This document shows positions 13,848 through 61,745 of a stretch of 64,000 nt of DNA, one piece after another (within the stretch, counting starts at the first letter, position 1; every line of letters starts with the position of its first letter). The translations under genes and the position numbers were made by a program. The notes beneath the pieces are model-generated. The model saw only the letters and a list, made by a program, of their open reading frames with translations. It had not been told where the DNA came from and searched no databases. Source of the stretch: Candidatus Methanomicula labiotermitis (GTDB lineage Archaea; Thermoplasmatota; Thermoplasmata; Methanomassiliicoccales; Methanomethylophilaceae); assembly GCA_009780575.1 (NCBI GenBank), contig WQZU01000001.1, positions 1-64,000 of the forward strand. The letters run 5' to 3'.

Positions 13848-14801
13848 ATGACACCCAACGCTGAAGGCCGGTACCCATTCCGCCACGCCGCCAACGAGTA
13901 CCTACGTGCTCACTACGGACTGCTCGCCACATCTACGTACGACGAGCGAGTCCGTAGATTCAGCCGTATGGCCAAGGATTTTGAGGCTTTACGTAAAGCT
14001 GACAAGGTCACTACCATGGATCCGGCCCAGCTAACAGCCGAGGATGTCAAGGAGTATTTTCTGATGCTCAAAGGCCGAGGGCTTTCCGCTAAGGGTCTTT
14101 CACACAATATCAGTGCGTTAAAAGTTCTATGTTTTTATCACGGCAACGCGGCTGTGGACGTATGCCGCGCCAAATATCCGATCATAAAAACCCGATTGCC
14201 GACGCATAGACTGCCTACCACTCCGCTTACGATCTTATCTGAGATTCTCGACAAGGGAAACGAATGCCAATCGTATGAGAGGATTAGAAACTACTCGGTG
14301 GTAGTCTGCGCATACTGCGCCGGTATGCGACCGGTCGAGATCCAACATGCCCGGATAGAGAACCTTAACACATCGGACGGTGTGATCTACATTGATGTTG
14401 TTAAAGGTCAAGGATCTTATGGAGAGCCTAGATACATTCCGATCCATCCCGAAGGTATCGAGATCCTTAAAAAATACGTCCATCTCAGAAATATAAAATT
14501 CGGATCCAAAGGATACCTTTTCACATCCGCCGGCCGTCGCTATTTTTCTACAAACGCCCTTAGATTTTTTAAGACACGGGTAGAAAATGAGGTATCACAC
14601 AAATTCGATTTCCGGGAGGGCCGCAGAACTTTCGGCCAGATGCTCATTGATGAGGGTGTTTCGGTCGAAGATGTGGCCGTTATAATGGGTCACCGGACCA
14701 GCCGGACCACAGAAAAATATTACGCTCGAAGAACGCAGAAATCTGCTATGTCAAACATTTTAAAACTATGGGAAAAAAGGAGAAATGAAAAAAATGAATA
14801 G
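13848..14801 (+). CDS. int: Tyrosine recombinase / integrase of the element
   Basis: 317 residues. The N-terminal part (about 10-115) is a SAM-like core-binding domain; the rest is the catalytic domain. Visible catalytic residues are R161 (GMRPVEI), K186 (VKGQGS), R259 (GRRTF), H282 (MGHRT) and Y291 (EKYYARR). The usual His of the HxxR motif is Arg here (R256), a change tolerated in several archaeal integrases. The gene ends 48 bases from the 3' end of tRNA-Leu, so it marks one end of an element inserted in that tRNA. It should catalyse insertion and excision. Confidence 0.9.
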   Translation: MTPNAEGRYPFRHAANEYLRAHYGLLATSTYDERVRRFSRMAKDFEALRKADKVTTMDPAQLTAEDVKEYFLMLKGRGLSAKGLSHNISALKVLCFYHGNAAVDVCRAKYPIIKTRLPTHRLPTTPLTILSEILDKGNECQSYERIRNYSVVVCAYCAGMRPVEIQHARIENLNTSDGVIYIDVVKGQGSYGEPRYIPIHPEGIEILKKYVHLRNIKFGSKGYLFTSAGRRYFSTNALRFFKTRVENEVSHKFDFREGRRTFGQMLIDEGVSVEDVAVIMGHRTSRTTEKYYARRTQKSAMSNILKLWEKRRNEKNE

Positions 14802-14845: not shown

Positions 14846-14890
14846 TGGTGCGGGGGGAGGGATTCGAACCCACGAACTCCTGTGAGACAG
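14846..14890. other. Predicted attachment site (3' part of tRNA-Leu)
   Basis: The integrase gene lies directly against the 3' half of tRNA-Leu, the usual target of archaeal tyrosine integrases. The core repeat should be part of the T-arm/acceptor segment. The second copy is expected left of the window, so the exact limits cannot be seen. Confidence 0.5.
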
Positions 14891-14949
14891 AATTTCTTCC
14901 TCTGCGGAGTCTTAAGTCCTGCGCCTTTGGCCAACTCGGCTACCCCCGC
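14849..14949 (-). tRNA. tRNA-Leu(TAA) with a short intron
   Basis: The minus strand folds with acceptor GCGGGGG/CCCCCGC, a TTCGAAT T-loop and a long variable arm (TCTCACAGGAGTTC), as in class II tRNA-Leu. The loop CTTAAGA gives anticodon TAA. The stem CAGGA pairs with TTCTG only if about 17 bases after the anticodon are removed, an intron at the canonical archaeal site between positions 37 and 38. A CCA follows at 14846-14848. It is the likely insertion site of the neighbouring element. Confidence 0.92.
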
Positions 14950-17321: not shown

Positions 17322-18002
17322 TTGTTAGAGGACGATATTGTGTACCGAAAACCCGACGACGACCGGCTTGATGAAGCTATACGCGCTGTGATCAAGCGCG
17401 AGCGCCATGTCAGGTCGCAGACTGCAATGGCGGAATTGGTTCTGAACGAATTGAAACGTGATCGTGAGGACTACCGCATCAGCGGCGAACGCATCAGAAA
17501 GGTTGCCATCGAACGCGGGATCCTTGAGATAGGGATAGAATACAATATGCATGACGGCCGTTCGCATGCTGACGTCTGCCCGGTGTGCGGTTACCCTACT
17601 GACGCTGTCAGCAACACGACGCTTGACGGCCGTGATGCTGATATCGGGTACGAGTGCACCAAATGCCCGTATCAAACCGGATTGAGAAAAAGGATGCCCG
17701 GAAGATACACATTCAGCGAGGGCCGTCCGCCGGATGCCGTCAAGGATCGTATCTCTCTTGTCAGAGATGTGACCAAACTTATGAAAAAAGCGGCGGCCCT
17801 TGTGGAAAGAGCAACGGAAGGGACGGAATACCGTAAAAGAGGGATGAGATGCCGCGACGACATACGGAGGATCATCTCTTCGAATGACAACGATAACAAC
17901 CTCCGAGATCTTATCAAAGATATGGACAACCGCAGTAAAGAGCAACCGGAATGGTCCGCTCCTCTGCCGTCTGTGAAAAGTGCGAACCGAAAAGATATAT
18001 GA
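17322..18002 (+). CDS. Conserved-looking helix-turn-helix / zinc-ribbon protein
   Basis: 226 residues, TTG start (GTG 17340 is an alternative). The N-terminal 70 residues look like a winged helix (SQTAMAELVLNELKRD..YRISGERIRKVAI); a zinc ribbon CPVC...CTKC follows at about 87-115, then a helical tail. It probably binds DNA or RNA. It lies 34 bases ahead of the acetyl-CoA synthase gene set, so it may regulate that cluster, but it could be unrelated. Confidence 0.6.
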   Translation: MLEDDIVYRKPDDDRLDEAIRAVIKRERHVRSQTAMAELVLNELKRDREDYRISGERIRKVAIERGILEIGIEYNMHDGRSHADVCPVCGYPTDAVSNTTLDGRDADIGYECTKCPYQTGLRKRMPGRYTFSEGRPPDAVKDRISLVRDVTKLMKKAAALVERATEGTEYRKRGMRCRDDIRRIISSNDNDNNLRDLIKDMDNRSKEQPEWSAPLPSVKSANRKDI

Positions 18003-18036: not shown

Positions 18037-18945
18037 ATGAAAGTATGGGATTTTGTTAAGGTTGCGGACTCGAAGGTAAAGATAGACGTAGGGTTGTCCG
18101 AGTCCATCGGTCTTGTGGACGGAGGATGCGTTTACAGCACTTTGTTCGAATACAAGGGAGGCGGCGCAAAGGAATATGAGCTTATACTATCCGCGTTCCC
18201 TCAGGAGAACTACAGGACGCTTACCCATCTTACCGTGTACATGTCGGATGTTCCCGGAGCAACGGCGCAGGCTGCCAGATTTCTCGGTTCCCGGAATGTG
18301 AATATCCTTAACTCGGTGTCCGTGAACGCCATTTCGGACACCAATATCATATGGAAGATGCTCGTTGACCTGAGTTTCGCGGGCGAAGCCGACATAATCG
18401 CCGAATCATTCAGATCGCTTAAGTATGCGGGCGACCCGTCGGTATCAAAATTGGACCACATTGAAGTGAAGTCTGCGGACATAGGCCGCGTGTTCCGTTC
18501 CGGCGGGGCCGGAAGCGATAAATCCGAACTGAGGTGCGGTGCACCCGTTACAATGAAAGAATATATGTTCGATACGTCCATAGAATATTCCGACATCCTG
18601 AACGGGATAAACGGATCCACGGCGATGATCATCGCCGATTCGGAATCGTGGATGCTTTCGATAACGCTGCTCAGAAAGGGCACGGAACTCGTAAAAATGG
18701 GGTTCAGCATACCCGACTGTCCCGGATCGATACAGCAGGTGGTCGATCATCTGGCGGAAGAGAATGTGAACCTGATGTCGGTGTTCAGCAAAGTAAAGAT
18801 ATGTTACCAGACAATGAGGCTTGACGTGACGGCCGACCTTGGCGCATGCAGGCATTCGGTCGATGAGATGGAGAAAGAGTTACCGAAAGCTCTTGAGAAG
18901 ATGAACGGAATATTCGAACTGATCGAATACAGAAGAATGAACTGA
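18037..18945 (+). CDS. ACT-domain protein heading the acetyl-CoA synthase operon
   Basis: 302 residues. Two ACT-like ligand-binding domains are visible, at about 60-130 (TLTHLTVYMSDVPGATAQA) and 225-295 (KMGFSIPDCPGSIQQV), joined by a middle segment. No catalytic domain is fused. ACT domains bind amino acids such as methionine or serine and control metabolic enzymes. It ends four bases before AcsB, so I infer a sensor of the end product of this methyl-transfer cluster. Confidence 0.75.
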   Translation: MKVWDFVKVADSKVKIDVGLSESIGLVDGGCVYSTLFEYKGGGAKEYELILSAFPQENYRTLTHLTVYMSDVPGATAQAARFLGSRNVNILNSVSVNAISDTNIIWKMLVDLSFAGEADIIAESFRSLKYAGDPSVSKLDHIEVKSADIGRVFRSGGAGSDKSELRCGAPVTMKEYMFDTSIEYSDILNGINGSTAMIIADSESWMLSITLLRKGTELVKMGFSIPDCPGSIQQVVDHLAEENVNLMSVFSKVKICYQTMRLDVTADLGACRHSVDEMEKELPKALEKMNGIFELIEYRRMN

Positions 18946-18949
18946 GTTG

Positions 18950-21142
18950 ATGGAACTGAGCAGAGAATACATTAAAAGAACATACGGGGCTGCCGGCGCA
19001 TCATTGGATAAATTGTTCGGTTCGGCCGATAAGGCGGATGCCGCTGCGCTCATATCAATGGCGTCGGAAGGATCCAAAGAACTGGTCTCACTTGCCAAAG
19101 AGATCGTCCGGAAGGCTAAGGCCGAGCATGGGAATGCGAAACTTTCGTTTCCGGAAACGGCGTACGGCCTCCCGTTGCTTTACGGATGGAAAGGCGTTTC
19201 CGATATTGATATAGACGGTGCTCTGACGTTGCTTGACAATTTGAAAGAACCAGGCTGCGCGACCATCGATGACGGTCTTCTTGCGGGCGAGAACGCCATG
19301 TGCGCCGCCGAGATTATCGAATCCGTCAGATACCTCAACGGAAAGACGGATGAAGGCGAGGGTTTCATACCGGACCGGATCTTAAGGGAGTTGGGCCTGA
19401 GTTTCGTTGACGAGACCATACCCGGCGCGGTCCTGTTCCTCGGCAGAAAGGAAAAGGAAGTTCCTGAATTGAGGAAGATGGTCAGGAACTGTCAGTCAAA
19501 GGGAATGATCTCATGCGCGTCCGGTGACTGTCTCAAACAGATGAGGGAAAGCGGCATCGAAATAGGATGGAGCCGTATGTTCTATCCTCTGGGAAGTTTC
19601 ACGGCGACTGTTCATGCTTTGAACTTCGCGGCGAGGGCCGCGTATTCATTCGGCGGCATCGGAGAAGGCGAAAGGGAACGTTTGAAAGAATATCTTTCAA
19701 AGAGACCGAAGATCGTCGTCATCCATTTGGGTCCGCTGACATGCATCGATGCGGCGTTCGCTTTTGCCGCATTGTTGCACAGCGCCGTTGTGATAACCGA
19801 CCGCGAGGTTCCGTACATAAACGGTGCGCTGCGTACCTGCAGAGAACATCTGGATATGTTGCAGGTCGGAATAGAGGAACGCGGAATAACCGTGAAACTT
19901 GAGCCTATAGACCTTCCTGTGGCGTACGGGCCGGCGTTTGAAGGCGAAACTGTGCGAAAACCGAACACTTACATCGAAGCGGGAGGAACAAGAAGCGAAT
20001 CCTTCGAACTTCTCACAGTTGCCGATGAAAAGAGCGTAGAAGACGGAAAGGTCACGCTGATAGGCAACGACATCGACAAATTTGAAAAAGGTTCACTGAT
20101 CCCGCTCGGAATACTTGTGCATATATACGGAAAGGATGTGCAGTCCGATCTTGAACCGGTGATAGAAAGGAACGTGCACAATTTCCTGAACTTCGCGGAA
20201 GGGCTGTGGCATGCCGGCCAAAGGGATTCCAATTGGATAAGGATAAGCGATCAGGCGAAAGAAAACGGATTCATGCTGGAACACGTCGGGAAGATACTGA
20301 TACACAAGATAAAGGAAGAATTCGGTAAAGTCGTTACGAGGATCCAGGTGACGATAATAACGGACCCCGCAAAGGTCACGGAATATCATGAAGCTGCAAA
20401 AAGGGTGTACGGCGAAAGGGACGAACGTCTTAAGGGGCTGACGGATGATTCGGTTGACGTGTTCTATACGTGCACCATGTGCCAGTCGTTCGCACCGGAC
20501 CATGTGTGCATCGTCGCTCCCGAAAGATTGGGGTTATGCGGCGCAATAAATTGGCTCGACGCCAAGGCCAGTAACGAACTGTCGCCCAACGGGCCGAACG
20601 CTCCGGTTTCGAAAGGAACCGTTCTGGATGAGGAGAAAGGCGAATGGGACGGAACGAACGACGTCGTCAAAGCGCAGTCGCACGGCAACATCGAAAGAAT
20701 GTGCATGTACAGTCTCATGGATTCACCGATGACCTCCTGCGGCTGCTTTGAGGTAATAGTGGCAATGACCGCCGACATGCAGGCCGTTGTGCTTGTTGAC
20801 AGAGACCATACGGGAATGACTCCCGTCGGAATGAAGTTCTCGACGCTCGCCGGCTCCATAGGCGGCGGAAGGCAAACTCCGGGATTCATGGGCATCGGAA
20901 GAAAATACATAACAAGCAGGAAGTTCATATCCGCCGAAGGCGGTATGATGAGAGTGGCGTGGATGCCCAAGCGCCTGAAGGAATCGCTTGCCGATGAGAT
21001 TGAAAGAATAGGAAAAGAGATGAACGTCCCGAACCTTTACGATAAGATAGCGGATGAAACGGTAACGGAGGATGCGGAAGGCCTCATGACATGGATGGCG
21101 GAGAAGGAGCATCCTGCGCTGAACATGCCTCCGCTGATATGA
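18950..21142 (+). CDS. acsB: Acetyl-CoA synthase catalytic subunit, bacterial length
   Basis: 730 residues. The enzyme makes or splits acetyl-CoA at a Ni-Ni-[4Fe-4S] A-cluster. The ligands are present: C-x2-C-x8-C-x9-C beginning at about residue 508 (CTMCQSFAPDHVC, then LGLC) and the CGC pair near 597-599. The length and the complete N-terminal domain (residues 1-310, which in bacteria docks CO dehydrogenase) match bacterial AcsB (about 730) rather than archaeal CdhC (about 470). No CO dehydrogenase subunit is encoded nearby. It overlaps AcsD by four bases. It probably works with AcsC/AcsD; direction of the reaction is inference. Confidence 0.93.
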   Translation: MELSREYIKRTYGAAGASLDKLFGSADKADAAALISMASEGSKELVSLAKEIVRKAKAEHGNAKLSFPETAYGLPLLYGWKGVSDIDIDGALTLLDNLKEPGCATIDDGLLAGENAMCAAEIIESVRYLNGKTDEGEGFIPDRILRELGLSFVDETIPGAVLFLGRKEKEVPELRKMVRNCQSKGMISCASGDCLKQMRESGIEIGWSRMFYPLGSFTATVHALNFAARAAYSFGGIGEGERERLKEYLSKRPKIVVIHLGPLTCIDAAFAFAALLHSAVVITDREVPYINGALRTCREHLDMLQVGIEERGITVKLEPIDLPVAYGPAFEGETVRKPNTYIEAGGTRSESFELLTVADEKSVEDGKVTLIGNDIDKFEKGSLIPLGILVHIYGKDVQSDLEPVIERNVHNFLNFAEGLWHAGQRDSNWIRISDQAKENGFMLEHVGKILIHKIKEEFGKVVTRIQVTIITDPAKVTEYHEAAKRVYGERDERLKGLTDDSVDVFYTCTMCQSFAPDHVCIVAPERLGLCGAINWLDAKASNELSPNGPNAPVSKGTVLDEEKGEWDGTNDVVKAQSHGNIERMCMYSLMDSPMTSCGCFEVIVAMTADMQAVVLVDRDHTGMTPVGMKFSTLAGSIGGGRQTPGFMGIGRKYITSRKFISAEGGMMRVAWMPKRLKESLADEIERIGKEMNVPNLYDKIADETVTEDAEGLMTWMAEKEHPALNMPPLI

Positions 21143-22071
21143 GTGATACCATGAAAATACCCGATGTCAGTGAAAAATATCCCGGTAAGATCGGTGAGAT
21201 CGTCCTCGGTAAGGGAGACTATATCGCCGGAGGATCCGACGGGATGCCTCTCCTTTCCTTCGAGAACACGTGTAAACGCAGGATGATGATAGCCGGAGAA
21301 GTGGTGGACGACCTTACCGATTACCCTGAGCTTGCGGCATCGATGTTCAACGGCCGCCAAAAGGATCCTGTGGAATGGTCATTGATGTGGAAATCGATCG
21401 GCGCTGACATGATATGTCTGCGGCTCAAAGGAACCGATCCGGACAAAGGTAAGACAACTGAATACGCTTCCGAACTCGTTGAAAGAATAGCTGACGCAAC
21501 GCAGCTCCCGGTGATAGTCTACGGGTGCGGCATTCCTGAGGTTGATGACAATCTTATGAAAGAAATAAGCAATTCCGTCAAAAACAGGAGACTCGTACTT
21601 GCAAAAGCCGACGAAGAAGGTCACAAGACGATATCGTCCGCCGCCATTGCGGGGAAACATGCGCTGATCGCATTCTCCAATCTTGATCTTAACCTTGCAA
21701 AACAGATGAACATCGTCCTTACCGATTTCGGAGTTCAGCGCAGCGATATTCTTATGGATCCGCTGATGGCTCCGCTGGGAATGGGATTGGATTATTCGTA
21801 TTCCGTGAATGAAAGGATAAGGCTCGCCGCCCTGTCAGGGGACAAGATGCTCCAGATACCGATGATATGCGACGCCACCGGCGCGTGGGATGTCGGTGAC
21901 GCCGTCAATGACGATGACGCCGACCTTGGTGATGTGGTCAATAGAGTGACATGGTGGGAAACAATGACGGCAATGGCGGCCATGGCATCCGGCGCGGACA
22001 TCGTAATAATGAGAGGACCGGGCGCAGCCGATATGATCTTAGGTTATGCGGATGAACTGAGGTGTGACTGA
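21139..22071 (+). CDS. acsD: Corrinoid iron-sulfur protein small subunit
   Basis: 310 residues from the ATG overlapping the AcsB stop (ATGA). The sequence follows the AcsD/CdhD TIM-barrel family, including the DFGVQRSDILMDPL and YSYSVNERIRLAAL segments. With AcsC it forms the corrinoid iron-sulfur protein, which carries a methyl group between acetyl-CoA synthase and methyltransferases. Its TGA shares a base with the next ATG, so subunits are made in equal amounts. Confidence 0.9.
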   Translation: MSDTMKIPDVSEKYPGKIGEIVLGKGDYIAGGSDGMPLLSFENTCKRRMMIAGEVVDDLTDYPELAASMFNGRQKDPVEWSLMWKSIGADMICLRLKGTDPDKGKTTEYASELVERIADATQLPVIVYGCGIPEVDDNLMKEISNSVKNRRLVLAKADEEGHKTISSAAIAGKHALIAFSNLDLNLAKQMNIVLTDFGVQRSDILMDPLMAPLGMGLDYSYSVNERIRLAALSGDKMLQIPMICDATGAWDVGDAVNDDDADLGDVVNRVTWWETMTAMAAMASGADIVIMRGPGAADMILGYADELRCD

Positions 22072-23387
22072 TGCCGACGGCGATAGAGTTCTTCAAACTG
22101 CTGCCCAAGACCAACTGTAAGGATTGCGGTCAGCCGACTTGTCTGGCGTTTGCGATGCTCCTTGCCAATCAGAAGGCGAAGATAGACGATTGTCCTCACA
22201 TAAGCAAGGATTCGAAGGACGCACTGGAAGAGTCGTCGGCGCCCCCGATAAGAACGGTCGTCCTCGGAAAAGGCAGTGAAGTTAGAATGGGCGGCGAAAC
22301 GGTGCTGCACAGACATGAGCGCGGATTCATCAATCCGACTGCTTATGCGGTCACCGTCTCCGATAAGGAGAATATACGTAACCGCATCGAAACCATAAAA
22401 AAATTGAGATTCGAAAGAGTAGGTATGGTATTTGAAACGGACATGGTGTCCGTCAGATGCGATTCCGGCGATCCTAAGGTGTTCAGAGATGCCGTCGTTC
22501 TTGTTATGGAATTATGGGAGAAACCGTTCGCCCTCGAGTGCTGCGCCTCCGTTCTGGAATCCGCATTAAGCGCTGCGTCGTCACGCAGACCTCTGATATA
22601 TCACGCGAACACAGAGAATTTTGATGATATGGTAGCTCTCTCAAAAAAGTACTCGTGTCCGCTGGTATTACGCGATCCGAACATGGGATCGCTTGCCGGC
22701 CTCGCCGATAAAGCAAAGGCGATGGGTGTTGACGATATAGTGCTTGACACGGGCGCAGCGAACCTGAAGGAATGTGTGGAGAAACATACGATCGCAAGAC
22801 GAGCGGCCATTAAGAAAAGATTCAAACAGTTCGGATATCCGTTAATGAACCGTGTCGGCTCCGGAGAGTACGCGGTTGCGATCGCTGCCGTGTCCACAAT
22901 GAAATACGGAAGTTTAGTGATATTCGATGATCTGAAGAGTTACGAGGCGCTGCCGCTGTTCACGCTCCGCCAGAATATATACACCGACCCTCAGGTACCG
23001 ATACAGGTGAAACAGGGCCTTTATCCTATAGGCGAGCCGAACGAGCATTCGCCTATATTCTTCACCGCCAATTTCTCGCTCACATATTTCACCGTGCGCG
23101 CAGACATAGAAAAATCGAAGATACCCGTCTGGCTGCAGATAGTGGACACGGAAGGATTGTCCGTGCTGACCGCATATTCCGCAGGAAAGTTCAATCCGGA
23201 ACACGTTGCAAAAGCATTGAACGACAGCGGCGTATTATCAAAATCGGACGGAATCGTTGTAATTCCCGGATTGGTGGCAAGGATGTCCTCCAAGCTGCGG
23301 GAACTTCTCGATCGCGAAGTTATCATCGGTACGACTGAATCACGCGACATACCGAAGTTCCTGAAGAATCTGAAACCTCCGAGATGA
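22071..23387 (+). CDS. acsC: Corrinoid iron-sulfur protein large subunit
   Basis: 438 residues. The N-terminal [4Fe-4S] motif has Cys at 16, 19, 24 and 41 (NCKDCGQPTC), then a TIM barrel and a C-terminal cobamide-binding domain (about 320-438). The cluster keeps cobalt reduced for methyl transfer. It is the last gene of the rightward acs operon and faces the cooC/methionine synthase operon tail to tail, 18 bases apart. Confidence 0.92.
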   Translation: MPTAIEFFKLLPKTNCKDCGQPTCLAFAMLLANQKAKIDDCPHISKDSKDALEESSAPPIRTVVLGKGSEVRMGGETVLHRHERGFINPTAYAVTVSDKENIRNRIETIKKLRFERVGMVFETDMVSVRCDSGDPKVFRDAVVLVMELWEKPFALECCASVLESALSAASSRRPLIYHANTENFDDMVALSKKYSCPLVLRDPNMGSLAGLADKAKAMGVDDIVLDTGAANLKECVEKHTIARRAAIKKRFKQFGYPLMNRVGSGEYAVAIAAVSTMKYGSLVIFDDLKSYEALPLFTLRQNIYTDPQVPIQVKQGLYPIGEPNEHSPIFFTANFSLTYFTVRADIEKSKIPVWLQIVDTEGLSVLTAYSAGKFNPEHVAKALNDSGVLSKSDGIVVIPGLVARMSSKLRELLDREVIIGTTESRDIPKFLKNLKPPR

Positions 23388-23405
23388 TTGTGATATCGAC
23401 ACAGT

Positions 23406-24149
23406 TCACGCTTGTGTGATCATACTGATTATTAATGATACGCCCTTGCTGAGTTCAGAATCGTCCGGTAATCTCAGCGGAGAACCGTCGAGGCCTGCGG
23501 AATACACGAAAGGATCGTGTTTTATCGATATGATATCCTTGAATCCGTTCGCTTTCGCCTCATCCGAAAGTTCCGGCGGCAGGTCTCCCGGAAGATTGTT
23601 GATGATGAGTATTTTTCTGCCAACTTCCATCCCGACCTCCGATGCCACGGATGAAAGACGCGACGCCGTCTTTATGCCTATCCTCGTCGGATCGGAGACA
23701 AAAAGCATTATGTCCGCTCCGGGAAGCGTCTTTCTTGACAGATGTTCCATACCGGCCTCGTTGTCCACCACCGTGAACTCATAGTTCCGTATCATACCGT
23801 TAAAACATTCTTTGAGGACGTTGTTCATGAAACAGTAGCATCCTTCTCCTTCCGGCCTTCCCATCACCAGAAGATCGATGTCGTCGTGCTCATGCATCGC
23901 TTTGCGCACTTCCAGCGCAACGTACTCATGCTTGCTCATCCCGTTCGGTATTGAATTCGAGTCGTTCACGGCGCGGTTTTTTATTTCGCCTATGGTGATC
24001 TCCGCCGGAATTCCCAATTTATCCGGAAGATTGGTGTTCGGATCCGCGTCGACCGCGAGGACCGGACCGTTCTTCGACAATCGTAATATAAGTTGCGACG
24101 AGATCGAACTTTTTCCTACGCCGCCTTTCCCTGCCAATGCGATTATCAT
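23406..24149 (-). CDS. cooC: CooC/AcsF-type nickel-insertion ATPase
   Basis: 247 residues from the ATG that follows the preceding stop by one base. Deviant Walker A GKGGVGKSS at the N-terminus and the metal-binding GCYCFMNN motif are those of CooC/AcsF, ATPases that load nickel into CO dehydrogenase or acetyl-CoA synthase. As AcsB is the only such nickel enzyme seen nearby, AcsB is the probable client. It is co-transcribed with the methionine synthase gene, linking that enzyme to the acs genes. Confidence 0.88.
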   Translation of the reverse strand: MIIALAGKGGVGKSSISSQLILRLSKNGPVLAVDADPNTNLPDKLGIPAEITIGEIKNRAVNDSNSIPNGMSKHEYVALEVRKAMHEHDDIDLLVMGRPEGEGCYCFMNNVLKECFNGMIRNYEFTVVDNEAGMEHLSRKTLPGADIMLFVSDPTRIGIKTASRLSSVASEVGMEVGRKILIINNLPGDLPPELSDEAKANGFKDIISIKHDPFVYSAGLDGSPLRLPDDSELSKGVSLIISMITQA

Positions 24150-24150
24150 T

Positions 24151-25203
24151 TTACACACCGTAATGTTCCTTCATCGTTTTTGATACGCTGTACAGCATAT
24201 CCAGCGCCTTATCCGCGCTCTTCGGTTCCACAGGGCCGAGGCCGCATTGCGGCGTCAGCATCGACTGTTTGATCATCAGGTCTTCGCTCACTCCTTTCCG
24301 AACGAGTGCGGCTATGCTTTCTTTTAATCTCTTTACAAGACTGTCGGCGGTCTCCGACGCTATGGCGTCGTCGCTGCTCGGTACGATGCCCCATGACAGT
24401 GTTCCTCCTTTCTTCAGAAATGCGGAGACCTCGTCCGGGAACATTGCGATCGTGTGCGCATACGAGTAAGCATCAAAACTCAGAATGTCAATGTTCGTTC
24501 TGAGGACAAGCGCCCAGTCGGTGTTGCCGCAGCAGTGTATCGCTATGCTGCAGCCCAATCCTTCCATCGATTCGTTGATCCACTTTACCGCCTGATCATT
24601 GGAGATCGATGCGAACGGCGTTCCGAGTAAAGACAGAGAAGGTTCGTCAAAGAAGATTATCACATTCTTGTTCTGTTTAGATAATCTTTCGTACTGCCAT
24701 TTTGCCGTCATGTTAACCGTTCTTATTATCAGTTCGGAGTACGCTTCATCGTATATGACCGATTTTCCGTTCTCATCCTGTATCTGCAGACCTTCGCTGA
24801 TCGGTCCGGTCACCTGTCCCTTTACTGCTTTGAATTTTGATAGGTCTCTGTTCAAAAACTCGTAAAGGCCTTTGTGATACTTTTCCGGGTGTGTGAAATA
24901 CGACACATCGTCGGACAGAATGGCGGTGTATATGTCAGTGGCGTCATAGGATGACGTGTTGACCGTTATCCTTTTGGCTTCCTCGTCTATGTTAACGCCC
25001 GGGAGACGGCAGCCAGTCTGCACGTACATGCTTTCCGTGAACCCCAGGGCCGGAAGCTGCGGCCACGCGGGGCAGGTTATTTTACCGCTGAGTATTTTGT
25101 CCAGTGCGTGTTCGGCGTCATCATACGGCAGCGAGCCTATAAGCGTGGTCGCAAAATTCCAACTCATCGAGTTCATCAACAACAGTTCCGTATTAAAGGC
25201 CAC
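24151..25203 (-). CDS. Core MetE-type methionine synthase (MesB-like, corrinoid-protein dependent)
   Basis: 350 residues, only the catalytic C-terminal barrel of MetE. Zinc ligands are visible: H223 and C225 (IHCCGN) and C320 (LTPQCGLG); FDEPSL (185-190) is the substrate loop. It lacks the folate-binding N-terminal half of MetE. Core MetE/MesB proteins of Dehalococcoides and relatives take the methyl group from methylated corrinoid iron-sulfur protein. Here the gene is coupled to cooC and faces acsCD, which fits that donor. GTG start; ATG at 25176 or 25167 are alternatives. UroD-like methyltransferases for coenzyme M are the main competing call. Confidence 0.78.
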   Translation of the reverse strand: MAFNTELLLMNSMSWNFATTLIGSLPYDDAEHALDKILSGKITCPAWPQLPALGFTESMYVQTGCRLPGVNIDEEAKRITVNTSSYDATDIYTAILSDDVSYFTHPEKYHKGLYEFLNRDLSKFKAVKGQVTGPISEGLQIQDENGKSVIYDEAYSELIIRTVNMTAKWQYERLSKQNKNVIIFFDEPSLSLLGTPFASISNDQAVKWINESMEGLGCSIAIHCCGNTDWALVLRTNIDILSFDAYSYAHTIAMFPDEVSAFLKKGGTLSWGIVPSSDDAIASETADSLVKRLKESIAALVRKGVSEDLMIKQSMLTPQCGLGPVEPKSADKALDMLYSVSKTMKEHYGV

Positions 25204-25319
25204 CGTTCATATTCATCTCATGGAAAATAATACGCGGATCCTGCGGAATTTATCGTTTCGTCTGCGGTGATAACATCGTTTACGGTTCATATACAGTAGA
25301 AAAAAATACCTTAAGATCC

Positions 25320-25823
25320 GTGTTCGGCGGCATCATGTTTTATTATGGCGCAATGACATTCATATGTATGTATCCTGCCGAACATATCTTGAATGCTGAA
25401 GAGGTCGGTAAAAAATTCGTCAATGATCTGAAAGTTCTGCTTGAGGAAAGATCGTGCAAAGCAAAGATCGACAGTGCGGACGGTGTTAAAAAAATAACAT
25501 ACAACAGACCGGGAACAAAAAATACGCTGATCACCCTTACTGTCGGACGTGATGTTCGGGTTCACATTTACGCTGACCGGATAAACGAATACATCAACGA
25601 CCTCATGTCCCTTCCGACACCGATACTTAATGCTATCAAAAGAGGGAAAGCGTGCGACGTATCCAACGAAACAGGAATGTGTGCGAATTGTCCCAAATAC
25701 CATTACGAGTTCACGGTGGGCGATGTGAAGTACAAAAAATGCAGATATGAGAACTTCAAATTCCGTGTGAACGAGCGAACCGCATCACCTCTTTTGAGAA
25801 TGGTAATGAACGAGATCAAGTAA
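25320..25823 (+). CDS. Conserved hypothetical protein
   Basis: 167 residues (ATG at 25335 gives 162). No membrane helix beyond a short hydrophobic N-terminus. A late CANCPKYHYEF...KKCRY segment (three Cys) could bind a metal. It lies between divergent methionine synthase and convergent RACo genes on its own. Function not recognised; the fold reads as alpha/beta. Confidence 0.55.
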   Translation: MFGGIMFYYGAMTFICMYPAEHILNAEEVGKKFVNDLKVLLEERSCKAKIDSADGVKKITYNRPGTKNTLITLTVGRDVRVHIYADRINEYINDLMSLPTPILNAIKRGKACDVSNETGMCANCPKYHYEFTVGDVKYKKCRYENFKFRVNERTASPLLRMVMNEIK

Positions 25824-25844
25824 CTGATGATGCGAAAGAAAGAA

Positions 25845-27491
25845 TCATCGCCCGTGATCCGCATACGTCGGAAATTGAGAGAAGTCCGTGTGCGGGATGA
25901 ACAGCGCGGATATGTATTCATCGGAGAACAAAGGATCGGAGCTCAGGTCGACGTATGTCATTCTTTTGAACACCTCTCCTATCCTGTTCCTTGCAGACGA
26001 GGATAACAGCGCCTGCTTCGCTCCGGCGAGCGACGCATTCCCGAGATATTCGAATTTTTCTCTCGGAACGTCGGGAAGCATACCTATCGCGATCGCACTT
26101 TCCGTGTTTATGAAATTCCCGAAACCGCCGGCGATGTATATCTTTTCAATGTCATCAATGTTCGCACCCAGATTGCGTATCAGTGATCTTGATGCGGAAT
26201 ATATTGCCGCCTTTGTCAGTATCGCATCATGTATGTCGTCTTCGCTTATGCGCACACCTTCCGCTATTGTAAGCGACTTTTTCCCGTCTATCGTTTCAAT
26301 GGATGTTTTATCGGTAAACTTTCCTTTTTTGTCTATGTAGCCGTGAATGAACAGCTGCGCCAGTATGTCGATCAGTCCGGAACCGCATATACCCTTTGCC
26401 CGGTCTCCCGCAATGACCGTGTATTCAAACCTTCCTTCCGTTATTTTGAAACTGTCTATGGCGCCGGGCTTGGCCATCATGCCCGATCTCATCCCTCCTT
26501 CGAAGGCAGGTCCGGCAGACGACGAACAGACGAGCATCATGTCCTTGTTGCCGAGCGCAACCTCTCCGTTCGTGCCTACGTCTATCAAAAGCGATAATCC
26601 GTCATCGGTGTCCATTTCGGAGTTGATTATGTCCGATGTCACATCACCGCCGACGTATGCGGCCGGAGATGGCATGCATATCACCATTGCATCAGCGTTC
26701 ACGTGTAGTCCGCTCTCCCTGCCCGTGATCTCCGCTTCCTTCACCACCGGATCGTAAGGAGGCTCCCTTATCGGAGACGGATCTATGCCCAGGAACAAAT
26801 GGATCATCGTTGTGTTCCCGGATACGTATACGGCGTTTATGTCATCCTTCGTGAGCCCTTTTTCATTGTTGCGTTTATCGTTTTCGCGCACGAACGGATC
26901 GATAAGATCGTTTATTGATTTCACAACGGATCTTCTCAGTTCTTCGGTCCCGCCCTCGTGCGCATACTCTATTCTTGAGAGAACATCATCTCCGTGGACT
27001 CCCTGTGTGTTGTAACCTGACGCAGAATACATATCCGTACCGCTGTTCATGTCAACGACGGAAACCGCAACGGTCGTCGTTCCTATGTCCGCCGCCAAGC
27101 CATAGTTGTTAGCGTTGCATTTCATTGGTGCGGCGATCGGTGTGAGATCGTGTATCTCGATGTTCCTGTGATCATTGGATGCGATTATCCCGTCGTCATC
27201 CGGCGGTATCGATACGCACATGTCCGCGTTAACATGTGTTCTGCATGCAAGCACTATCATGTGATCCGGTTTCAATGCGTTTTTCTCTTTTCGTCCGCCG
27301 CTGTTCTCCGGCCCGTTTTGCAATTCGTTCTCATGTTTTGATATCGTAACATTGCAGCGCCCGCACCTTCCGTTGCCGTTGCACGGAGTCCTGATGACAA
27401 CACCGGCGGCCTTCGCGGCGTCTGAGATCAGCGTATCGCGATCAACGAGCGCACGCGCACCGGATGGAAGGAATCTTATTTTGAATTTCAT
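25845..27491 (-). CDS. Reductive activator of corrinoid protein (RACo/RamA-type ASKHA ATPase)
   Basis: 548 residues. An N-terminal plant-type [2Fe-2S] domain has Cys 37, 43, 46 and 83 (RTPCNGNGRCGRC, LACRTHV). The rest is the DUF4445 ASKHA ATPase domain with AADIGTTTVAVSVVD and a late IYIAGGFGNFI motif. Such proteins reduce inactive Co(II) cobamide to Co(I) at the cost of ATP. Next to acsC/acsD the client is most likely the corrinoid iron-sulfur protein; methylamine/methanol corrinoid proteins are another option, as RamA-like proteins differ in having [4Fe-4S] domains. Confidence 0.88.
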   Translation of the reverse strand: MKFKIRFLPSGARALVDRDTLISDAAKAAGVVIRTPCNGNGRCGRCNVTISKHENELQNGPENSGGRKEKNALKPDHMIVLACRTHVNADMCVSIPPDDDGIIASNDHRNIEIHDLTPIAAPMKCNANNYGLAADIGTTTVAVSVVDMNSGTDMYSASGYNTQGVHGDDVLSRIEYAHEGGTEELRRSVVKSINDLIDPFVRENDKRNNEKGLTKDDINAVYVSGNTTMIHLFLGIDPSPIREPPYDPVVKEAEITGRESGLHVNADAMVICMPSPAAYVGGDVTSDIINSEMDTDDGLSLLIDVGTNGEVALGNKDMMLVCSSSAGPAFEGGMRSGMMAKPGAIDSFKITEGRFEYTVIAGDRAKGICGSGLIDILAQLFIHGYIDKKGKFTDKTSIETIDGKKSLTIAEGVRISEDDIHDAILTKAAIYSASRSLIRNLGANIDDIEKIYIAGGFGNFINTESAIAIGMLPDVPREKFEYLGNASLAGAKQALLSSSARNRIGEVFKRMTYVDLSSDPLFSDEYISALFIPHTDFSQFPTYADHGR

Positions 27492-27654: not shown

Positions 27655-28353
27655 GTGAAGATAGCTGGATTCATAAAAACGACATTGCTTGATTGGGACG
27701 GAATGGTCGCCTGCACCGTTTATCTGGCAGGATGCGGCCTCAGATGTCCGTACTGTCATAACAGAGAGATGGTCTTGAATGCGGATACCGTTGACGGGAT
27801 AGATGAGAAAGACGTACTGGCATACATTGAAGAGAACTCGGACTTCATAGACGGAGTGGTGGTATCCGGCGGAGAGCCGCTTATGAATGAGGATATTGAA
27901 AAATTCCTTAAGAAGATAAAGGCGCTGAACGTGAAGGTGAAGATAGACACCAACGGTCTTTTCCCCGAGGTTCTGGACGATCTCATCGGCGCCGGCCTCG
28001 TTGACATGGTGGCCATGGACGTGAAATCATCACTCAATGAAAGATACAACGCCGCCTCGGGAGCAATTGTGGATCTTGACATTATAAGGAAAAGCATCGA
28101 ATTGATCATTGGTTCCGGCGTTGACCACGAATTCAGGACAACTGCCGTACCCATCTATGTTAAAGATGATGATATAAAAAATATATCTATGAATATCAAA
28201 GGAGCAAAGAGATATCGTATACATCAGTTCAGAAACAAAGTTACGATGGATGATGCTCTCTCCGTCCTCAATCCTTATCCAGAGTCGAAACTTATCAATA
28301 TGGCCGAGATCGCAAAGGAATACATCAAAGACGTTAAGATCCGCGGGATATGA
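27655..28353 (+). CDS. Radical SAM activating enzyme (NrdG/PflA-like)
   Basis: 232 residues, GTG start with a TATA-like box (cataaaataga) about 30 bases upstream, so likely leaderless. The radical SAM triad is C27, C31, C34 (GCGLRCPYC). VVVSGGEPLM is the SAM-binding GGE motif. It belongs to the anaerobic ribonucleotide reductase/pyruvate formate-lyase activase family, which installs glycyl radicals. No glycyl radical enzyme is adjacent, so its partner is elsewhere. Confidence 0.85.
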   Translation: MKIAGFIKTTLLDWDGMVACTVYLAGCGLRCPYCHNREMVLNADTVDGIDEKDVLAYIEENSDFIDGVVVSGGEPLMNEDIEKFLKKIKALNVKVKIDTNGLFPEVLDDLIGAGLVDMVAMDVKSSLNERYNAASGAIVDLDIIRKSIELIIGSGVDHEFRTTAVPIYVKDDDIKNISMNIKGAKRYRIHQFRNKVTMDDALSVLNPYPESKLINMAEIAKEYIKDVKIRGI

Positions 28354-28394: not shown

Positions 28395-29798
28395 TTATTT
28401 CAGAAACTCCGATACGTCCGCCCTGACTGCCGTTCCCACGGTCTCGCTCGGCCCGTTGACGTATACAACATCTGAATTCACCTCTCCGAGGAACTTTTCT
28501 ATGACCTTCTCATCTTTTGACACTATTCCCGAACTCATGCCGAATTCACAGTCGCCGGCCATCTCGATCGCTTCGCTTAGATCGTTGACTATCTGCACGG
28601 AAAGTACAGGCAGACTGTGGTCTATGCCATTGAACTCATGGTCTTCCGGAAGACCCGCGAATATCGCCGGCAACACATAATATCCGGCGTCCGTTATCTC
28701 TCCTGTCACTCTTTTCCCTCCGAAGATCAGATTGTCCCTGGAATTCTTAACGATCTTCAGGAAATTCTCCATGTTCTCCTTTGATATGATCGGGCCGACG
28801 AATGTTCCTTTCTCAGCGGGATCTCCTACGGTCATCTTGTTCGCTTCAGCGAGAAGATGTTCGATGAACTGTTTCTGTTCGTTTACCGTAACTATTACTT
28901 TTGAACATGAGTCGATCCTCTGACCGCCGTACCTGAATGCCGATGTCACGGCAATATTCGCGGCCGCCTGCATTGACGCCGGTTTGTATATCACCAGAGG
29001 ATTCATCCCTTTGAATTCGCCGATGAACAGCAGCTGATCGTTGATCGCGGCGAACATGAGGTCTTCGAATCTGTCGCTTCTGCCGACGGCGACCACTCCT
29101 TTGATGTTCTCGTTCTCGATCAATGCATTGGCCGCTTTGCCTTTTCTGTCGAATATTATGTTCAGAACGCCGTCCGGCAGCAGAGGAGCAAGTATCTCAT
29201 ATACCGCATACACCGGGAACGGGCATTCCTTCGGAGGTATGACGATAACGCTGCTGCCGGCGAGCATCGCGGAAACGGCATAACCCATCGGTGCTGCCAG
29301 CGGAGAATTGTATTCCGATATCACGGCCCATGTTCCGGCCGGTTTTCCTTTTGCGGTCTTTATCTTCTCCGACCCTTCCTCAATGATCTCGATCAGTCTT
29401 TCAACTTCGTATATGGAATCATCACGCGTCATGCCGGAACTGAGCGTTACGGCCGCGGCGAGCTTGTACTTTTGTCTCTTTATGGTCTCCAGCGCCGTTA
29501 CAAATATTTCAGAACGTTTCTCCTTGTCGATTTTTGACCATATTCTGAATGCATCGGAAGCAACATCCGCGGCTCTGTCCGAAAGACCGTCTTCGGGCTC
29601 CTGGAACCTTCCGAACCTTATACTTTCGTCCACCGGACTGGATACCGTGTGTTCGTTCCCTGATGCCACCATTAGGCCGCCGACGTAACACGGATAATCC
29701 TTTTTGTCCGTGTGCAGAACGGAATTCAGGGCGCCGTCGAACTTCTTGTCCCGATCGCTTTCCTTAGGTGCATCTTTGGTCGTCTGATCGTATTTCAT
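28395..29798 (-). CDS. Aldehyde dehydrogenase superfamily protein without the catalytic cysteine
   Basis: 467 residues with normal ALDH layout. The cofactor-side Asn (SEYNSP, N164), the Lys (PPKECP, K190) and the general-base Glu (GEFKGMNP, E261) are present. At the catalytic position the motif is GGQRIDSCSK: Ile295 stands where GQ-x-Cys is expected, and the only Cys (298) is three residues later. It may be inactive, use C298, or have another role. It is single, convergent with the radical SAM gene. Confidence 0.8.
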   Translation of the reverse strand: MKYDQTTKDAPKESDRDKKFDGALNSVLHTDKKDYPCYVGGLMVASGNEHTVSSPVDESIRFGRFQEPEDGLSDRAADVASDAFRIWSKIDKEKRSEIFVTALETIKRQKYKLAAAVTLSSGMTRDDSIYEVERLIEIIEEGSEKIKTAKGKPAGTWAVISEYNSPLAAPMGYAVSAMLAGSSVIVIPPKECPFPVYAVYEILAPLLPDGVLNIIFDRKGKAANALIENENIKGVVAVGRSDRFEDLMFAAINDQLLFIGEFKGMNPLVIYKPASMQAAANIAVTSAFRYGGQRIDSCSKVIVTVNEQKQFIEHLLAEANKMTVGDPAEKGTFVGPIISKENMENFLKIVKNSRDNLIFGGKRVTGEITDAGYYVLPAIFAGLPEDHEFNGIDHSLPVLSVQIVNDLSEAIEMAGDCEFGMSSGIVSKDEKVIEKFLGEVNSDVVYVNGPSETVGTAVRADVSEFLK

Positions 29799-60743: not shown

Positions 60744-60953
60744 ATGGTAAGCCTTCCCGAGCACGGCCATTGTGTGAATTGCGATGATCCGATATCGTCC
60801 AAAGAATATTTCTGCTCCGACGACTGCACGAATGAGTACGCTGCCGACGTCAAGGAAGCGAAAAGATTGGACAGACGTTTCTATGCTCTTATGGCGGTCT
60901 CGATCGCAGCTATTGCGGCGATCACTTATCTATTCAAATTTTTCATCCTTTAA
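60744..60953 (+). CDS. Tail-anchored treble-clef zinc protein (DUF2116-like)
   Basis: 69 residues. HCVNCDDPISSKEYFCSDDC gives a four-Cys treble-clef finger near the N-terminus and a C-terminal membrane helix (about 46-67) anchors it. It is divergent from the E1-Ubl-E2-JAMM operon and ends overlapping the convergent folP by 24 bases. Family known in archaea without function. Confidence 0.75.
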   Translation: MVSLPEHGHCVNCDDPISSKEYFCSDDCTNEYAADVKEAKRLDRRFYALMAVSIAAIAAITYLFKFFIL

Positions 60954-61745
60954 CGCATCCAGAGTTCTCTTTACATCGTGTACTCTCACTATGTTTGCAC
61001 CGTTCCTTATGCATTCCGCTGCCGACAGGATGCTTGCATCCGGCCTCGGCAGATCAGGGTACGCGTACGGCAGGAAGGACTTCATGGATGTGCCTGTGAG
61101 TATCGGAAATTTCCTGCCGAATGTTCGAAGACCTTTTATGATCTCCGTGTTCTGCTGAAATGTTTTTCCGAAACCGATCCCCGGATCAAGTATGATCCTG
61201 TTCCTCTTTATCCCTTTGAGTTCCGCATAAGCGCATACCGCGTCAAAGAATTCCGATATCCTTGAGACCGCGTCTCCGGACATGGTGCTCGCCTGCATTG
61301 TCTTCGGAACGCCGTGCATATGCATTATCACCACCGGAACTCCCGCCGATGCAGCGAGATCGGCCATACGCTCATCGCGGATGCCGCTTACATCGTTGAT
61401 CATCTCGGCGCCGGCGTTCAGCGCCGCCTCCGCCGTTTCAGGATGCATCGTATCAACCGATATCGGAACATTCACCGACGGCGCCGCGATCCTTATGACG
61501 TCTATTATCCTTGCTATCTCCTCCTCCGGAGACACCGGAAGGGATCCCGGTCTTGTTGATTCGCCTCCTATGTCGATGATGTCTGCGCCCTCGTCCTCCA
61601 TTTCAAACACTCGATCGACAGCAGCTTTTCCGGAGTAACGGATGGTATCGGAGAACGAATCCGGCGTCAGGTTCAGTACGCCCATTATTCTCGGCCTGTC
61701 ATATGAGATCAAACCCCTTCGCCATTCCGTTGACGGCGTTGTCAT
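60930..61745 (-). CDS. folP: Dihydropteroate synthase
   Basis: 271 residues. MGVLNLTPDSFSD, DIGGESTRPG, NDVSG, HMHG and DPGIGFGKT are the full DHPS set. The late GTSMKSF replaces the usual G-x-SRK. It condenses p-aminobenzoate or a related aryl compound with a pterin, for folate or methanopterin-type cofactors. Its start overlaps the Fe-S protein gene by four bases. Confidence 0.9.
   Translation of the reverse strand: MTTPSTEWRRGLISYDRPRIMGVLNLTPDSFSDTIRYSGKAAVDRVFEMEDEGADIIDIGGESTRPGSLPVSPEEEIARIIDVIRIAAPSVNVPISVDTMHPETAEAALNAGAEMINDVSGIRDERMADLAASAGVPVVIMHMHGVPKTMQASTMSGDAVSRISEFFDAVCAYAELKGIKRNRIILDPGIGFGKTFQQNTEIIKGLRTFGRKFPILTGTSMKSFLPYAYPDLPRPDASILSAAECIRNGANIVRVHDVKRTLDALKDEKFE

Follow-up and report, generated by a model that had tools for sequence, protein, structure and literature searches.

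The stretch of DNA analysed here (64,000 nucleotides, hereafter the window) comes from the draft genome of Candidatus Methanomicula labiotermitis (GCA_009780575.1; 94.9% complete, 64 contigs), and its plus strand carries genes for an ACT-domain protein, AcsB, AcsD and AcsC that overlap or nearly do so. At the head of this acs operon stands a conserved gene of no Pfam or NCBIfam family (p226, 226 aa; 17322..18002, +), whose homologues occupy the same position in most of the loci that we fetched. The ACT-domain protein (302 aa; 18037..18945, +) is encoded by the first gene before acsB and matches PF01842 just under the cut-off (E 1.1e-5). AcsB (18947..21142, +; likely ATG at 18950) is an acetyl-CoA synthase/decarbonylase of the bacterial type, with the N-terminal domain, that scores 862 bits against the NCBIfam model CODH_ACS_al_bet (NF040764, cut-off 800) and keeps six of six A-cluster cysteines when aligned to 1mjg chain M. 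Its closest named relative, the sole one returned by a scan of genome contigs, is from a Methanomassiliicoccaceae MAG and is 76% identical over 450 residues. The small subunit of the corrinoid iron-sulfur protein, AcsD (21139..22071, +; PF03599 and NCBIfam matches), likely starts at 21139 in an ATGA overlap with acsB and is nearest to 2h9a chain B (E 7e-56). The large subunit, AcsC (22071..23387, +), carries an Fe-S motif, scores 513 bits against NF003195 (cut-off 306) and is nearest to 2h9a chain A (E 1e-107). An ACS with its A-cluster and a corrinoid iron-sulfur protein, both part of the definition of a complete Wood-Ljungdahl pathway, are therefore both present.

Facing the acs genes on the minus strand are three further genes. 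The first encodes a CooC-type nickel-insertion ATPase (23406..24158, -; likely ATG at 24149) with a Walker A motif (GKGGVGKS) and a CxC motif, whose nearest solved structure is 3kje (E 8e-16). It is followed by a MesB-type core methionine synthase (24151..25167, -; likely start at 25167 in a frame open from 25203) and by a RACo/AcsV-type corrinoid reactivation ATPase (25845..27491, -; PF14574 and PF17651, nearest 3zyy, E 1e-108). A preliminary description of this DNA had placed AcsB, AcsD, AcsC, a nickel ATPase, RACo and a core MetE together here, and we found every one of these genes intact at its reported position. Beyond RACo lie a radical SAM protein (27655..28353, +; PF04055) and an aldehyde-dehydrogenase-like protein (28395..29798, -; family named by sequence inspection); in many family f1 loci, the former is a conserved neighbour of the cluster and homologues of the latter adjoin it. 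Between mesB and RACo, the window also encodes a 167-aa cysteine-containing protein of no known family (25320-25823, +), with a homologue in just one same-genus genome among the loci read. Elsewhere in the window, a tRNA (14849-14949, -; an Rfam match with no ARAGORN call) adjoins an integrase-like gene (13848-14801), a possible integration site.

The cluster layout is conserved across Methanomassiliicoccales. Both acsB and mesB occur in 64 genomes of the order, 55 of which have the two on one contig, and in all 55 they are 3.0-7.9 kb apart, which argues that the layout is not due to chance. The ACT-domain protein, which had been suggested to sense methionine, likewise adjoins acsB in most genera, g14 among them, where mesB is missing. 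As it follows acsB and not mesB, methionine is not singled out as its ligand, and that suggestion finds no support. The larger proposal of the preliminary description was that the cluster provides methionine methyl groups from acetyl-CoA, in the manner of Dehalococcoides, with release of CO; the evidence bearing on it is set out below.

CO dehydrogenase in the source genome

That CO dehydrogenase is missing, as first described, holds for the 64-kb window, but not for the genome, which encodes one Ni-CODH on another contig (C4:44450-46132; TIGR01702, 731 bits, cut-off 478). This gene sits in an hdrC-hdrB-cooS operon and is present in 6/8 genomes of the organism's own genus. Its product keeps all C-cluster ligands and two D-cluster cysteines, while the acid-base His and Lys are replaced by Tyr and Gln, the signature of clade C in a published table (PMC6344411); by these residues we class it as clade-C-like. 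According to a 2026 survey, which calls the evidence thin, clade C enzymes probably convert CO/CO2 slowly or not at all and serve in auxiliary functions (PMC13056359). The enzyme shares 80-90% identity with the CODHs of genus g8, a genus without ACS, AcsCD and MesB, and only 27-32% with those of full-pathway relatives. No CODH of the type that those relatives have (canonical His/Lys and ~645 aa, or an AcsB fusion) was detected in the source genome, and in the loci read the clade-C-like form never lies beside ACS. The ACS of the window thus appears to be without an obvious dedicated CODH partner.

Several other arrangements of these families were seen in the order. The hdrC-hdrB-cooS operon with a clade-C-like CODH is common to the own genus and g8 (L009:6385-9771, -; also L010, L111, L112 and L119) and is possibly a CO-heterodisulfide link. 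A CODH-AcsB fusion of ~1360 aa occurs in eight genomes (G001, G004, G005, G125, G126, G130, G132 and G134; loci L118:3912-7988, +, and L096, L093 and L098), and the L118 protein matches each of the Prismane, CODH_A_N, CdhC and ACS C-terminal domains. A Prismane-family protein of 431 aa whose N-terminal part is missing is encoded at L120:1989-3284 (+), and such proteins were also seen in other genomes of the order.

Gene distribution and losses across the order

For 147 genomes of the order, we tabulated the occurrence of seven gene families. MesB and AcsCD are both present in 70 genomes and both absent from 74, with mismatches of 2 and 1, so that they agree in 144/147. The corresponding Fisher value (2e-38) is overstated because genomes share ancestry; this inflates the co-occurrence counts, beneath which there are only few independent losses. 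Genomes without MesB come mostly from genera g6-g9 and g14. In g14, the locus has lost acsC, acsD and mesB and kept acsB, cooC and RACo; the three lost genes are not all adjacent, cooC lying between acsC and mesB. In genome G028 (96% complete), a MesB homologue (L088:7061-8074, +) lies on a contig that ends ~0.8 kb after it, and no match to AcsB, AcsC or AcsD was obtained. Genus g14 also has a divergent orphan AcsB of 36-37% identity (L090:7654-9690, +; also L091, L123 and L124), in which all six A-cluster cysteines are kept and Gly596 is replaced by Ser; the genomes with this protein are without AcsC, AcsD, MesB and CODH.

Arranged by genus, the genomes form a reduction series that runs from the full pathway, through loss of MtrH and/or CODH and loss of MTHFR, to the own genus (g1), which has ACS, AcsCD, MesB and the clade-C-like CODH, and to g12. 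In the six genomes of g12 (85-99% complete), ACS, AcsCD and MesB are present and no CODH, MTHFR or MtrH was detected, so MesB still tracks AcsCD even in the absence of MTHFR, MtrH and any CODH. Without CODH, the ACS of g12 has no internal CO supply, and this gene content would fit ACS cleavage better than synthesis. In a tree of five locus proteins, g12 groups with three genera that have kept MTHFR, namely g2, g3 and g11 (support 0.998 and 0.935); g1 falls outside. MTHFR was therefore probably lost at least twice while the acs-mesB set was kept.

These patterns bear on whether ACS might instead run in the synthesis direction, with methyl groups of methanol or methylamines reaching AcsCD via a methyltransferase, CO taken up from outside or supplied by the hdrCB-linked CODH, and MesB doing no more than drawing on methyl-AcsCD. 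The source genome encodes McrA and the window an HdrA-Mvh-type set, indicating that the organism is a methanogen, and its order is a methyl-reducing one (PMC10804542). A Ni-CODH with a complete C-cluster would also make ACS synthesis possible if methyl groups reach AcsCD by another route. However, the source genome has no MtrH, its CODH is of the divergent form described above, with close homologues in g8 genomes that have no ACS, and g12 keeps ACS without any CODH. We consider synthesis by this ACS a reading to be kept in mind, but an improbable one, and acetyl-CoA cleavage for methionine the better account of the losses.

The putative MesB-type methionine synthase

The protein encoded at 24151-25167 is 338 aa long from its likely start and has no Meth_synt_1 match. 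It thus consists, as expected of MesB, of a single catalytic domain of ~340 aa and lacks the half of MetE that binds folate. The zinc-ligand pattern of MesB has been described as His-Cys-(Glu/Asp)-Cys (Price et al. 2021, PMC7857596), and a His-Cys-Asp-Cys set (HCC...D...C, with Asp third) is invariant in 26 aligned orthologues, as are the homocysteine-binding Ser and Asp positions. As in other members of the family, the gene goes together with those for AcsC and AcsD, both in this locus and in 70/72 MesB genomes of the order.

The protein could conceivably be, in place of a methionine synthase, a methyltransferase acting between AcsCD and a different acceptor such as coenzyme M, since it has no significant Pfam family and its nearest named profiles are weak (48 bits for the best of them, the methionine synthase PRK00957). 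The only solved structure found by profile search was the MesD-type 3rpd (E 0.04), and a single-sequence structure prediction had a mean pLDDT of 43. Nevertheless, the protein is 31% identical to a MesB-like protein of a Desulfosarcina plasmid and matches MesB-like proteins at E 3e-61 and MesD proteins (beside DUF1852) at ~1e-10, whereas CoM-methyltransferase-like proteins of the same order reach E 0.005 or worse. In a tree, it groups with other MesB-like sequences on a branch separate from the CoM-methyltransferase-like proteins, and not with MtaA/MtbA-type proteins. Together with the invariant zinc ligands and homocysteine-binding residues, and with the failure to find another methionine synthase in the source genome (below), these results make a different acceptor quite unlikely. 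We file the protein as a putative MesB, on comparison with sequences that did not include the Dehalococcoides reference DET0516.

Weak PF01717 matches in the order were considered as alternative methionine synthases and set aside, the four that we fetched being closer to CoM methyltransferases than to MesB. In-frame stops had been reported inside five mesB frames (G113, G019, G134, G017 and G021). We read three of the five and dropped selenocysteine or pyrrolysine for them: in G113, the TAG precedes the conserved start region, and G019 and G134 have readings without an internal stop.

Methyl branch and other methionine synthases

Absences in the source genome rest on family searches of a draft. 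For the methyl branch, these covered MTHFR, MtrH and formate-THF ligase (FTHFS). None of the three was found, which bears out the preliminary description for the methyl-branch genes searched. A family search likewise found no MetE-type catalytic domain in the source genome, and MetH/BHMT-type proteins occur in 0/147 genomes of the order, the source genome included. The genome search that the preliminary description called for therefore gave no MtrH-, MetH- or MetE-type gene, and among the genes searched no complete CODH and methyl branch came to light. A survey published in 2024, covering 243 genomes, reports that the order is without ftr and mch and uses a tetrahydrofolate branch (PMC10804542). 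A folP-type gene in the window (60930-61745) suggests that folate itself may be made.

That an ordinary full pathway is simply hidden in the missing part of a genome that is 94.9% complete in 64 contigs is highly improbable, as MTHFR and MtrH are absent from 8/8 genomes of the own genus (chance from MAG incompleteness alone ~2e-7, if independent), and FTHFS, found in 131/147 genomes of the order, is absent from 7/8, the eighth having only a 67-residue fragment.

Discussion

The presence of an acetyl-CoA synthase is commonly taken to point to carbon fixation or to energy metabolism based on acetate. We think it likely that the cluster described here is instead what remains of an acetyl-CoA pathway that has been retained for methionine synthesis. 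In this proposed pathway, CooC would load nickel into AcsB, which would split acetyl-CoA into CO, CoA and a methyl group, and the methyl group would pass to the cobalt of AcsCD. MesB, a zinc enzyme, would move it from AcsCD to homocysteine, giving methionine, and RACo would re-reduce AcsCD once its cobalt is oxidised. CO would be released or slowly oxidised by the unlinked clade-C-like CODH, which may help remove it. What the sequences themselves show is the identity of the genes, their metal ligands and conserved layout, the lack of the methyl-branch and other methionine synthase genes searched for, and the joint retention or loss of MesB and AcsCD; the direction in which AcsB works, methyl transfer from AcsCD to MesB and what becomes of CO are inferred from them. 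The original proposal of methionine methyl groups from acetyl-CoA is thus the best-supported reading, having come through the genome check for MTHFR, MtrH, FTHFS, MetH and MetE. Its corollary that CO is released needs amending, as a CODH gene exists, albeit a divergent one, and CO need not simply be given off. In favour of the pathway we count the gene set of the organism's own genome, the co-occurrence of MesB and AcsCD, genus g12, the at least two probable losses of MTHFR, the co-loss in g14 and the Dehalococcoides precedent; against it, we count the CODH with a complete C-cluster, a draft genome that is 95% complete and G028.

In Dehalococcoides, C2 of acetate becomes the methyl group of methionine (PMC7005905). 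As in Dehalococcoides mccartyi (PMC7005905), AcsB, AcsCD and a folate-free core-MetE/MesB are found here without MTHFR, and acetyl-CoA is the methyl source, as we propose from the genes. The two systems differ in several ways: the host here is a methanogenic archaeon, its mesB, cooC and RACo genes adjoin the acs operon, and its genome has a gene for a clade-C-like CODH. FTHFS was not found there, whereas Dehalococcoides has Fhs and FolD. Price et al. (PMC7857596) reported that Methanomassiliicoccales have MesB only, and our protein resembles their MesB family in ligand set, size, link to AcsCD and order. They treat the order as having the Wood-Ljungdahl pathway, while we find several genera without MTHFR, MtrH and/or CODH that keep ACS, AcsCD and MesB. 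The CODH/ACS loci of full-pathway Methanomassiliicoccales have orthologous acsB, acsD, acsC, cooC and mesB in the same layout, but their CODH type was not found in the source genome. In the partial paper collection available to us, Price et al. was the only work found that joins these topics. The mechanism was thus already known from Dehalococcoides (PMC7005905), as was MesB in the order (PMC7857596); what is new are archaeal lineages cut down to ACS, AcsCD and MesB, the linked gene losses and the clade-C-like hdrCB CODH.

Taken together, these data lead us to favour, with some reserve, a model in which the Wood-Ljungdahl pathway was pared down, independently in several Methanomassiliicoccales lineages (among them the own genus and g12), until it served solely to supply the methyl group of methionine from acetyl-CoA, with CO as an unavoidable by-product and methionine synthesis as the last function keeping ACS and the corrinoid protein. 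To say of the whole order that it has the Wood-Ljungdahl pathway is to overlook lineages in which only fragments of it are left. If the model is true, natural gene losses are at hand for testing the mutual dependence of MesB and AcsCD, and such organisms are predicted to need acetate for methionine and to give off CO. ACS would then be kept for a single amino acid, and the presence of such genes in gut methanogens would have to be interpreted differently.
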